Assembly: GCF_013404595.1 (NCBI RefSeq)
Contig: NZ_JABVAX010000007.1
Location: forward strand, 62,001 to 126,000
Source: Jannaschia marina
GTDB taxonomy: Bacteria > Pseudomonadota > Alphaproteobacteria > Rhodobacterales > Rhodobacteraceae
DNA length: 64,000 nt
Direction of reading: 5' to 3'
In this document: positions 42,656-49,960 of the stretch, in pieces
How the letters are laid out: every line of letters begins with the position of its first letter
Numbering within the stretch: position 1 is the first letter of the stretch
Translations under genes and position numbers: made by a program
The notes under the pieces: generated by a model
Database searches by the model: none
What the model was told of the DNA's origin: nothing
The model's input: only the letters and a program-made list of their open reading frames with translations

Positions 42656-43801
42656 ATGCCCCAGACGCCGACCGCCTGCCTCGCCCTTGCCGACGGGACG
42701 ATCTTCATGGGCCGCGGGTTCGGGGCCACGGGTGTCTCCGTCGCCGAACTCTGCTTCAACACCGCGATGACCGGCTACCAGGAGATCATGACGGACCCGT
42801 CCTATGCCGGACAGGTCGTCACCTTCACCTTCCCGCATATCGGCAACACCGGGGTCACCCCCGAGGACGACGAGACCGCGGAACCGGTCGCCGCAGGCAT
42901 GGTCGTCAAGTGGGATCCGACCGATCCGTCGAACTGGCGCGCCGTGCAGGATCTCGAAAGCTGGCTCGCCGCGCGCGGCCGCATCGGGATCGGCGGCGTC
43001 GACACCCGCCGGCTCACCCGCGCCATCCGGCAGCAGGGCGCCCCCCATGTGGCCCTCGCCCACGACCCCGAGGGCAACTTCGACATCGAGGCGCTCGTGG
43101 CCCAGGCCCGCGCCTTCAAGGGCCTCGAAGGCATGGATCTCGCCCGGGACGTGACCTGCGCGCAGTCCTACCGCTGGGACCAGACGAAATGGGCCTGGCC
43201 CGACGGATACGGCACGCAGGACGCGCCACGGCACAAGGTCGTCGCCATCGACTACGGGGCCAAGCGCAATATCCTGCGCTCGCTTGCCTCGGTCGGCTGC
43301 GACGTGACCGTTCTGCCCGCGACGGCGACGGCCGAGGACGTGAAGGCGCTGAACCCCGACGGCGTCTTCCTGTCGAATGGCCCGGGCGATCCGGCGGCGA
43401 CCGGCGAATACGCCGTCCCGATGATCCGCGACATGGTCGACACGGGCCTGCCTGTCTTCGGGATCTGTCTCGGCCACCAGATGCTCGCCATGGCGCTCGG
43501 CGCGAAGACCGTGAAGATGAATCACGGCCACCACGGGGCGAACCATCCCGTGCAGCGGCGTGCCGACGGCAAGGTGGAGATCACCTCGATGAACCACGGC
43601 TTCACCGTCGACGCACAAAGCCTCCCCGAAGGTGTCGAGGAGACGCATGTGTCGCTCTTCGACGGCTCGAATTGCGGCATCCGTCTCTCGGGCAGGCCGG
43701 TCTTCTCGGTGCAGTATCACCCCGAAGCGAGCCCCGGCCCCCACGACAGCGCCTATCTCTTCGACGAATTCGCAGCCGCGATGGAGGCCGCGAAGGCCTG
43801 A
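42656..43801 (+). CDS. carA: Carbamoyl-phosphate synthase small (glutaminase) chain
   Basis: 381 residues. The N-terminal domain (GFGATGVSVAELCFNTAMTG) is followed by a class I glutaminase with nucleophile Cys271 in FGICLGHQ and His355 in YHPEASPGP. It supplies ammonia to CarB for arginine and pyrimidine synthesis; carB is not in the window, as is frequent in this order. A 189-bp divergent spacer separates it from yqeY. Confidence 0.97.
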   Translation: MPQTPTACLALADGTIFMGRGFGATGVSVAELCFNTAMTGYQEIMTDPSYAGQVVTFTFPHIGNTGVTPEDDETAEPVAAGMVVKWDPTDPSNWRAVQDLESWLAARGRIGIGGVDTRRLTRAIRQQGAPHVALAHDPEGNFDIEALVAQARAFKGLEGMDLARDVTCAQSYRWDQTKWAWPDGYGTQDAPRHKVVAIDYGAKRNILRSLASVGCDVTVLPATATAEDVKALNPDGVFLSNGPGDPAATGEYAVPMIRDMVDTGLPVFGICLGHQMLAMALGAKTVKMNHGHHGANHPVQRRADGKVEITSMNHGFTVDAQSLPEGVEETHVSLFDGSNCGIRLSGRPVFSVQYHPEASPGPHDSAYLFDEFAAAMEAAKA

Positions 43802-43813
43802 GTTGTCCGGGTG

Positions 43814-43828
43814 TTAACCGGCAATTAA
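43814..43828 (+). promoter_or_regulatory. Perfect CtrA-type box upstream of the glycosyltransferase
   Basis: TTAA-CCGGCAA-TTAA, exactly the TTAA-N7-TTAA full site bound by CtrA in alphaproteobacteria, 13 bp after the carA stop and 43 bp before the glycosyltransferase ATG. At about 70 percent GC such a site is expected by chance only about 0.02 times in 64 kb. This supports a promoter controlled by the cell-cycle regulator. Confidence 0.65.
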
Positions 43829-43871
43829 GAAATGACAGGCAAGGGTGGTGCGTACCTTTACCGAGTATGCC

Positions 43872-45902
43872 ATGTCTTCGCTTGCGGCTTTCCGTTCCCC
43901 CGTTCCCGACCCCGAGGACAGAGCCGCCACGCGCAAGGGCCTCTGGAAGGCGCGGGAGGATCGTCGCAAGACCGCGCCCGAGCCGGAGGCTTCCTCGGTC
44001 GGCACTCCGGCGCGAATGCGCCCCAAGCTCGGGGAAGTTCTTCTCGATATGGGCGCGATCAGCGGGTCCGACCTCGCCCATGCGCTCACCCTGCAACGGC
44101 GTATGTCCGCGCGGCTCGGTGACGTGCTCCTACGGGGCGAGATCGTGGATGCCGAGACGCTGGCCGACGCGCTCGCCCGGCAACGCGGCATCGGTCGCGC
44201 CGGTCCCGCGCCGCGCGGCGACGCGGCGGCGGATGCGCTCGCGCGCAGGATGCCGCTCGACATGTCCGTCTTCTTTCGCGCGATCCCCTGGCGCAAGGTC
44301 GGCAGCCTGACGCTTGTTGCGACGGCCCGGCCCGAGGCGATCGACACGCTCGCGGACCTGCTCCCACCGCTCCTCGGCCCCTGCCTCTTCTCGGTCGTGA
44401 CCGACGCCGCCTTCGACGATCGCCTGACCGAGATCCATGGCAAGACCCTCGCGCGCGCCGCCGAATGCGAGGTGCCGAAACCGATGAGTTGCCGCAGCTG
44501 GCACCCGAGTGGCCTTCTCAACCCGCTCGCGCTCCTGCCGGCGCTCCTGATCGTCGCGGCGATCGCCGCGCCGCTCACCTTCCTCAAGATCGCCACGGCG
44601 CTCGGCCTCCTCGTCATGTGCTCGAACCTCGGTCTGCGCATCGCGGCCCTGCTCGCGGCCCGTCGTACCCCGACGAAATCCCCGCCCCCCGAAGGCGCGG
44701 CCGCGAAGTTGCCGTCCGTCTCGCTGCTCGTACCCCTGCACCGCGAGCCGGAGATCGCCGCGTCACTGACCCATCGTCTCTCGCGCCTCGACTACCCGAA
44801 GGAGCTCCTCGACATCTGCCTCGTGGTCGAGGCGGATGACTTCGTCACGCGCAACGCGCTCGAAAAGGCCCGGCTGCCGGCGACGATGCGCGTCATCACG
44901 GTGCCCGACGGCTCTCCGCGCACCAAGCCGCGTGCGATGAACTACGCACTCAACTTCGCCCGCGGCGAGATCGTCGGCATCTACGACGCCGAGGACGCGC
45001 CCGCGCCCGACCAGATCATGCGCGTCGCCCGGCGTTTCCAAGAGGTGCCGGAGGACGTCGCCTGCCTGCAGGGACTGCTCGACTACTACAATCCGACGCG
45101 CAACATCATGTCGCGCTGCTTCACCATCGAATACGCGACCTGGTTCCGTCTGGTCCTGCCCGGCCTCTCCCGCCTCGGTCTCGCGGTTCCCCTTGGCGGG
45201 ACGACGCTCTTCTTCCGGCGCAAGGCCCTCGACCGTATCGGCGGCTGGGATGCCCACAACGTCACCGAGGACGCAGATCTGGGCATACGCCTCGCGCGGC
45301 TCGGCTACCGCACCGAGATCATCCGCACGACGACCCTGGAGGAGGCGAACGCCCATCCGCTCGCCTGGATCAAGCAGCGCTCCCGCTGGATCAAGGGCTA
45401 TGTGCTGACCTGGGCCGTGCACAGCCGCCGGCCGCTCAAGCTGCTGCGCGAACTCGGGCCCCGGCGCTGGATCGGCTTTCACCTGCTCTTCATGGGCTCG
45501 GTCCTCAATGCGCTGCTCATGCCCTTTCTGTGGTCGACAGCCGTGATCCTCTTCGGCCTCCATCACCCCGTCCTCGATTGGCTGCCCGGCGAGAGCCCGG
45601 CCGTCCTGGCAGGTCTCCTGATCGGCGGCACGCTGACCTCGATGGTGATTTCCTGGTTCGGCTGCGCGACCCCGCACCACCGCCCCCTGCGCCCCTGGAT
45701 CCCTCTGATGGAAGCGTATTTCTGGCTCGCCACACTCGCGGTGATGAAGGCGCTGGCCGAGATCGTCTTCCGTCCGTTCCACTGGGACAAGACGACGCAC
45801 GGCACCTTCGGCGGCACCGATGGCTCCGACTTCTCGCACCTGGAGACCGCCGCGCAGACCGTCGACGTCGATCCGGTCGGCCACATCGGCCAGCGCGGCT
45901 AG
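43872..45902 (+). CDS. GT2 glycosyltransferase with N-terminal MshEN-like c-di-GMP domain
   Basis: 676-residue inner-membrane protein. Residues 52-75 and 81-104 are two 24-residue motifs fitting the MshEN pattern RLGxxLLxxG...LxxxLxxQ, with exactly five residues between; deviations are Lys52 for Arg, Ala62 for a larger aliphatic, and Glu90 for Gly in motif 2. Helices at about 215-260 lead into a processive GT2 domain: DxD-like DAEDAP at 372, TEDAD at 465 and QRSRW at 502-506. C-terminal helices span 535-635. It probably polymerises an extracellular polysaccharide under c-di-GMP control. Its stop shares CTAG with the convergent GntR gene. Confidence 0.85.
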   Translation: MSSLAAFRSPVPDPEDRAATRKGLWKAREDRRKTAPEPEASSVGTPARMRPKLGEVLLDMGAISGSDLAHALTLQRRMSARLGDVLLRGEIVDAETLADALARQRGIGRAGPAPRGDAAADALARRMPLDMSVFFRAIPWRKVGSLTLVATARPEAIDTLADLLPPLLGPCLFSVVTDAAFDDRLTEIHGKTLARAAECEVPKPMSCRSWHPSGLLNPLALLPALLIVAAIAAPLTFLKIATALGLLVMCSNLGLRIAALLAARRTPTKSPPPEGAAAKLPSVSLLVPLHREPEIAASLTHRLSRLDYPKELLDICLVVEADDFVTRNALEKARLPATMRVITVPDGSPRTKPRAMNYALNFARGEIVGIYDAEDAPAPDQIMRVARRFQEVPEDVACLQGLLDYYNPTRNIMSRCFTIEYATWFRLVLPGLSRLGLAVPLGGTTLFFRRKALDRIGGWDAHNVTEDADLGIRLARLGYRTEIIRTTTLEEANAHPLAWIKQRSRWIKGYVLTWAVHSRRPLKLLRELGPRRWIGFHLLFMGSVLNALLMPFLWSTAVILFGLHHPVLDWLPGESPAVLAGLLIGGTLTSMVISWFGCATPHHRPLRPWIPLMEAYFWLATLAVMKALAEIVFRPFHWDKTTHGTFGGTDGSDFSHLETAAQTVDVDPVGHIGQRG

Positions 45903-48862: not shown

Positions 48863-49960
48863 ATGAACGGTCAGATCGTCGTCACCGGTGCGAATATCCT
48901 GCGCGATCCGTCGGTTAACACCAATTCCTCCGGCGGCAACGACGGTCAGGGCACGATCCGGATCCAGAGCGGCCAGCAGGTCTTCGACAGCGACGACATC
49001 GTGGTTTTCGACGTTCAGAACGTGACGGCCGACGGCGAGGTCTCGGGGGCCTCCGGCTTCTTCGGCATCACCGTCTACGACAGTGCCGCCGATTTCGCCT
49101 CGGGCACGACGAAATTCACCTACGGGCCGCAAAACCCGGGCCAGACGGCCAATGTGCAGTCGGACCTGAGCGGGCTCGGCGACGGCTACGTCCGGTTCAA
49201 CGCCAACGTCCTCGTCAGCAGCGACCCCGGCGCGCCGACCTTCAATCAGCTCATCGTCGCCGGCGGGCGCGACCTCGTCTCGGAGATCGCAAGCGGCCCG
49301 GTGCTCTTCGACCGCAATCAGGATTTCGACTTCGACGGCGACGGCATGATCGACGTCGGCACGATCGAGGAGGGCAACAACCTCTATGCCCTCGGGACGG
49401 GCGTAATGATCTGCTTCGCCGAGGGCGCCCCGATCCTGACACCGGACGGATACAAGCCGGTCGAGGCGCTCGAGGTCGGGGACCGGGTCGTCACCCGCGA
49501 CCACGGCGCACAGCGCATCCTCTGGATCGGGGCGCGCGAGGTCGCAGGCACCGGAGACCTCACTCCGATCCGCTTCGCACCCGGCGCGATCGGCAACACC
49601 TGGGCCTTCCGCGTCTCGCCCAACCACCGGATCCTCGTCTCCGGACCGTCGGCGGAGCTCATGGCGGGCCTGCCGGAAGTGCTCGCCCCCGCGAAGCATC
49701 TCGTCAACGACACGACCATCCGTCCCGCGCCCTGCGCGGCGGTGACCTATCACCACTTCCTGTGCGAGAGCCACGAGATCGTGGACGTGGCCGGTTGCCT
49801 CGCCGAAACGCTGCACCCCGGGGCCGAAGCGCTCGACATGATGGGCGAGGCCGCGCGAGCCGAAGTGCTCGCCCTCTTCCCCGAACTCGAGACGGCCGAG
49901 GCCCGCCCCCTCGCCCGCCCGGCGCTGCGCGCGGGACAAGCCGCCGTGCTGAAGCTCTAG
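48863..49960 (+). CDS. Hint-domain protein, probably exported
   Basis: 365 residues with no signal peptide. Residues 1-180 are acidic, Gly/Asn/Ser-rich and beta-prone, with a calcium-loop-like FDFDGDGMIDV at 156-166. A Hint_2-type domain starts at Cys184 (MICFAEGAPILTPDGY) and keeps NHRI and the HHF/ESHEIV block. Such proteins are abundant in Rhodobacteraceae and often leave the cell through type I secretion. No extein follows the Hint domain, so splicing is impossible; autoproteolysis at Cys184 is conceivable. Preceded by AGGAG. Confidence 0.85.
   Translation: MNGQIVVTGANILRDPSVNTNSSGGNDGQGTIRIQSGQQVFDSDDIVVFDVQNVTADGEVSGASGFFGITVYDSAADFASGTTKFTYGPQNPGQTANVQSDLSGLGDGYVRFNANVLVSSDPGAPTFNQLIVAGGRDLVSEIASGPVLFDRNQDFDFDGDGMIDVGTIEEGNNLYALGTGVMICFAEGAPILTPDGYKPVEALEVGDRVVTRDHGAQRILWIGAREVAGTGDLTPIRFAPGAIGNTWAFRVSPNHRILVSGPSAELMAGLPEVLAPAKHLVNDTTIRPAPCAAVTYHHFLCESHEIVDVAGCLAETLHPGAEALDMMGEAARAEVLALFPELETAEARPLARPALRAGQAAVLKL

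Follow-up and report, generated by a model that had tools for sequence, protein, structure and literature searches.

The closest known counterparts of the promoter considered here are the fla2 promoters of Rhodobacter sphaeroides, which are activated by CtrA and drive flagellar genes; their mapped transcription starts fall on a purine 23-24 nt past the CtrA box, A being invariant at -11 and G present at -4, and are followed by 12-33 nt up to the start codon (PMC6180460). In the signaling pathway, an influence of c-di-GMP on CckA, and through CckA on CtrA, has been reported (PMC9756655, PMC6473078), and an account of Dinoroseobacter shibae states that no PilZ-type c-di-GMP receptor could be identified there (PMC6473078). 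Among synthases, NfrB of Escherichia coli is described as a c-di-GMP-activated exopolysaccharide synthase that joins an MshEN domain to a processive GT2 domain with DxD, TED and QxxRW motifs (PMC8669469). CtrA promoters and MshEN-glycosyltransferase fusions are both kinds of element already known (PMC5013675, PMC8669469, PMC6180460), and the comparisons below point to no novel type of system; what they suggest as new is a family-wide member of the CtrA regulon, itself well known.

The window, which is the whole 64-kb stretch of DNA analyzed here, carries a perfect CtrA full site, TTAA-CCGGCAA-TTAA (TTAACCGGCAATTAA), at 43814-43828 on the forward strand, identified by pattern search and by its conservation in orthologues. 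It is the sole TTAA-N7-TTAA match in the window, whether no mismatch or up to one is allowed. Upstream lies carA (42656..43801, forward strand), encoding the carbamoyl-phosphate synthase small chain and recognized by the Pfam domains CPSase_sm_chain and GATase in a translation scanned from 42659, without its Met; this gene served as the synteny anchor. Its TGA stop codon (43799-43801) is separated from the box by 12 nt, and a further 43 nt separate the box end from the ATG (43872-43874) of a gene for a 676-residue MshEN-GT2 glycosyltransferase (43872..45902, forward strand). A sequence-only reading of this DNA had described just such a box, immediately past the carA stop and 43 bp ahead of the ATG, and both the site and its placement are borne out. 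The same reading had put the number of chance matches per window at about 0.02, which agrees with the 0.023 expected from base composition (64 kb, 68.8% GC) and with the absence of the box from all 100 dinucleotide shuffles of the window. The background of the whole genome is milder, with 18 TTAA-N7-TTAA places in 3.83 Mb (34 contigs) against 8 for the reversed pattern, or about 0.13 per 64 kb. Some of the 18 boxes must therefore be chance matches, and a single box is suggestive, moderate evidence, for which conservation decides. That the box arose by chance in the AT-richer gap between the two genes is a negligible prospect, refuted by that conservation, as the box occurs in 97 of 110 real upstream regions but in only 10 of 19,400 letter-shuffled upstream pieces.

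The sequence-only reading had proposed looking for the box in orthologous promoters, and there it is present, with a perfect TTAA-N7-TTAA upstream of the gene in 101 of the 115 family orthologues compared, a one-mismatch site in 12 and neither in two (L128 and L239), so that 113 of 115 have the box with at most one mismatch. The gene itself is present in 200 of 219 genomes of the family sample, and the 115 orthologues comprise 30 first loci, 80 further loci and five from nine additional stretches. For the first set, 60 genomes were searched, 46 gave gene matches and the best 30 of these, own genome included, were used; all 30 have a perfect box, which stands between carA and the synthase gene in 29, the contig ending too soon to show carA in the remaining one (L037). 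The second set, made up of the first 60 new rows and the 20 last rows among the matches listed, contains 67 loci with a perfect box, 12 with a one-mismatch site (L125 among them) and one with neither. Where carA is visible, a perfect box stands after it in 63 of 76 loci, and the total of 67 is reached with L110, where the box overlaps the end of carA, and with L065, L074 and L100, where a perfect box occurs at loci without carA. The nine further stretches yielded five family orthologues, four with a perfect box and one without. Similarly, the best 80 of at least 574 relatives, a sample that overlaps the other sets, gave 68 perfect boxes, 10 one-mismatch sites, one locus with none and one too short to judge. 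A perfect box was absent from the homologues outside the family (G039, G044 and G053) and from a second, non-carA copy in G032, and we therefore restrict the claim to the carA-type gene of the family. At one locus (G008:C1:2845039-2850284) the match to the synthase gene is broken into two pieces with about 3.4 kb between them, which looks like the result of an insertion, and the box is intact.

The distance from the box to the gene is conserved as well, with 38-54 nt between box and start codon in 86 of 97 perfect-box regions (median 46, start codons having been chosen mechanically). Because a like site stands at a near-constant distance in most of the relatives compared within the family, it is very probable that the synthase gene belongs to the core targets of CtrA. 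A comparison within the genus Jannaschia, covering the own genome and 19 relatives, points the same way: a perfect box precedes the synthase gene in 20 of 20 genomes, radC in 12 of 18 and a control gene, by resemblance probably idi, in 0 of 20. Two genomes were left out for radC, as the best match there resembled a second radC copy, and the 18 that were compared have 12 perfect boxes, five one-mismatch sites and one locus with none. Within the genus the box at the synthase is thus kept better than that of radC, and on this measure the synthase appears to belong to the core of the CtrA regulon in the family.

The sequence past the box resembles the R. sphaeroides promoters in having, besides the CtrA site, an A at the corresponding place (PMC6180460). 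An A occurs 12-14 nt past the box in 93 of the 97 perfect-box regions (counted as an A at position 26, 27 or 28 from the box start), with about 53% expected; once the box itself is set aside, together with the C's that come after its halves, the most pronounced columns are A at 27 (63%) and at 28 (59%). Expectation maximization returned a weak -10 motif, CGCAAgGt, about 23-31 from the box start, and the single-position count of A is clearer. Placed by the R. sphaeroides architecture (PMC6180460) and by the sequence, the predicted transcription start is the G at 43852 (43852..43852, forward strand), 24 nt past the box end; the putative -10 region, marked by the conserved A, then spans 43840..43848 on the same strand, with A 43841 at -11, G 43848 at -4, G at +1 and the box itself from -38 to -24. 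The leader would be 20 nt, within the range of the fla2 promoters. The two systems differ in that the fla2 promoters drive flagellar genes from mapped starts, whereas here the gene is that of a polysaccharide synthase and the start is a prediction (PMC6180460).

The predicted geometry also bears on the direction of control, for CtrA might bind the box yet repress, the synthase then being made only as CtrA activity falls. Caulobacter CtrA is known both to activate and to repress, and repression would suit sticking after swimming; however, the repressing sites described in that organism are half sites over the -10 region, and its activating sites lie near -35 (PMC6180460). The site here is a full one that ends 24 nt ahead of the predicted start, like those of activated R. 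sphaeroides promoters (PMC6180460), and phosphorelay mutants of Phaeobacter are reported to show predominantly down-regulation (PMC12363192). We consider repression improbable and continue with activation as the preferred reading.

A conserved TTAA-N7-TTAA could also belong to another factor, to the core promoter or to a terminator element of carA, and the spacing of the halves and the carA loci that lack the synthase speak to this. The first 30 loci, 143,853 bp in all, contain 33 N7 sites, every one upstream of the synthase gene, and not a single site with a spacing of 5, 6, 8 or 9 between the TTAA halves. Likewise, among the best 80 of at least 574 relatives, spacing 7 was seen 73 times and each of the spacings 4-6 and 8-11 only 0-4 times. 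Nineteen genomes have no synthase gene; 15 of these yielded a carA locus, of which 14 are informative. A perfect box occurs at one of the 15, on a contig that stops 57 bp past carA, and no perfect box follows carA in any of the 14 informative loci, two of which (L142 and L150) have one-mismatch sites near the gene. Since CtrA too is missing from 11 of these 14 genomes, just three loci form a clean control (L137, L141 and L144, with CtrA present and the synthase absent), and these show not even a one-mismatch site near carA. In favor of a role independent of CtrA, three genomes (G025, G207 and G235) keep both the gene and the box without an intact CtrA match. Two of them have recognizable parts of CtrA, as after damage (G025:C58:48175 and G235:C3:464793), and G207 has no match at E<=1e-60. 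With the N7 spacing so far above all others, two of the three exceptions retaining parts of CtrA, and no perfect box after carA at the informative loci where the synthase is missing, we regard a factor other than CtrA as very improbable, and CtrA remains the preferred candidate for the binding protein.

The own genome encodes that regulator and parts of its phosphorelay. CtrA is found at C28:423269-423940 by a profile match of 426 bits (cut-off 350), a ChpT-type HPTransfase domain at C28:321045-321392 exceeds its cut-off, and a CckA-like kinase, read from a truncated locus, scores below the cut-off of its model. With CtrA and phosphorelay genes in the own genome, the proposal of the sequence-only reading that the synthase belongs to the CtrA regulon is supported jointly by the conservation of the box, its near-constant distance, the conserved A, the control at carA loci and the presence of a CtrA gene. 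Several of the other 17 boxes of the genome stand ahead of plausible targets (loci L003, L005, L006, L007, L008, L012, L055 and L056 of G000), among them flagellin, a chemotaxis receptor, a response regulator, presumably ChvI-like, and radC, as well as luxR with luxI, the CckA-like kinase and PAS-domain signaling proteins, one of them a PAS kinase; some of the remaining boxes have no obvious link. One PAS protein, which we take to be DivL-like, starts about 46 nt from its box. Two further perfect boxes (L016 and L017, at G000:C31:198405 and 200148) lie 1.7 kb apart near a contig end in DNA of 45-50% GC; they may be chance matches, and the low-GC stretch is perhaps plasmid or mobile DNA.

Across the 219 family genomes, CtrA and the synthase occur together in 197, neither in 14, CtrA alone in five (one of them the genome of L138, where the contig ends) and the synthase alone in three, G025, G207 and G235. 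Striking as it is, this co-occurrence is not counted as proof, because the test that allows for relatedness was not significant: the carA tree was poorly resolved, with 4 of its 101 inner branches starred, and on it the independent-pairs test could use a single pair (p of 1).

The glycosyltransferase carries at its N-terminus the 53-residue c-di-GMP motif of an MshEN domain (residues 52-104; 44025..44183, forward strand), for which the NCBI model NF053729 gives 48.6 bits against a curated cut-off of 38 and an alignment over 53 of 53 positions, comprising two 24-residue motifs and a 5-residue spacer. Pfam MshEN scores 16.4 bits in the window protein, below its cut-off of 23.1, and is found at E<=0.1 in 27 of 27 aligned orthologues. 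The earlier description of the gene as a c-di-GMP-type glycosyltransferase is upheld by the profile match above cut-off, though K52 stands in place of the motif I Arg and E90 in place of the motif II Gly of the published motif form (PMC5013675). These replacements would suit a reading in which the box works but c-di-GMP does not gate the enzyme, MshEN being a structural relic in this lineage, as would the detection of the c-di-GMP motif at E<=1e-4 in 23 of 27 orthologues against the box in 27 of 27. On the other side stand the score above the curated cut-off, the retention of the two Gln residues along with the 5-residue spacer, and the presence of K at the same place in 10 of 27 orthologues. 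A relic domain is, in our judgment, a somewhat unlikely reading, and we keep gating by c-di-GMP as the preferred one; the difference in retention suggests that control by CtrA may be conserved more strictly than control by c-di-GMP. At four loci (L031, L043, L044 and L046) the box is kept and the c-di-GMP motif looks degraded by eye; in a separate count, the motif model misses four of 27 orthologues.

The processive GT2 catalytic domain (residues 281-511; 44712..45404, forward strand), located by profile, alignment and structure model, has DAED, TED and QxxRW motifs. Its E374, D375, T465, E466, Q502, R505 and W506 are invariant in 27 of 27 rows and D467 nearly so, and the DxD-type acidic residues, TED and QxxRW are accompanied by membrane helices and a synthase fold. 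The structure model (mean pLDDT 84.5) shows long helices and that fold, and a profile search against solved structures returned the N-terminal domains of MshE, PilF and PilB together with cellulose synthases among the relatives. By Foldseek, the nearest solved structure is the cellulose synthase 4p00 (E 3.5e-14), and the GT2 and membrane-part fold is shared with BcsA, although the TM-score is just 0.45 and the window protein falls far below the cellulose synthase cut-offs. BcsA has a PilZ domain at the place where the window protein has MshEN. The NfrB model matches its MshEN part to residues 41-151 of the window protein with 42.5 bits, far from the equivalog cut-off of 1170, and the synthase has carA and a GntR-type gene as neighbors rather than nfrA/ybcH. 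The domain order is also reversed relative to NfrB, MshEN coming first in the window protein (PMC8669469). NfrB may be the nearest known functional counterpart.

Taking promoter and protein together, we consider it highly likely that the box serves CtrA as a working operator, with CtrA directly activating the gene and c-di-GMP gating the enzyme. Phosphorylated CtrA would bind 43814-43828, overlapping the -35 place, and recruit RNA polymerase, so that a transcript starting at about 43852 would be made for an inner-membrane polysaccharide synthase. The N-terminal MshEN would bind c-di-GMP and turn on the processive GT2 domain, which would presumably secrete a polymer with a possible role in attachment. 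Such double gating would mean that the synthase is made in the CtrA-active, flagella-making state and works once c-di-GMP rises. Given the reported action of c-di-GMP on CckA (PMC9756655, PMC6473078), the circuit would be one of load and trigger. More tentatively, and with rather less than even confidence, we suggest that this holds family-wide: CtrA would pre-load a silent synthase in swimmers, and c-di-GMP would then fire the enzyme and lower CtrA through CckA, stopping the production of new synthase and flagella, with the synthase as the missing c-di-GMP effector. If true, a CtrA-driven MshEN synthase would provide the c-di-GMP signal with an output and connect motility and quorum sensing with the surface polymer, and CtrA control of the synthase may link swimming to sticking.

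In a literature search over titles and the starts of abstracts, the synthase gene was not named as a CtrA target; published tables and further papers on CtrA in R. sphaeroides and R. capsulatus, which lay outside that search, may contain it. The word part "glycosyl" was likewise absent from the main text, tables excluded, of the CtrA papers on this bacterial group that were searched.

The window also contains an open reading frame at 48863-49960, the middle of which presumably resembles a Hint-type domain.
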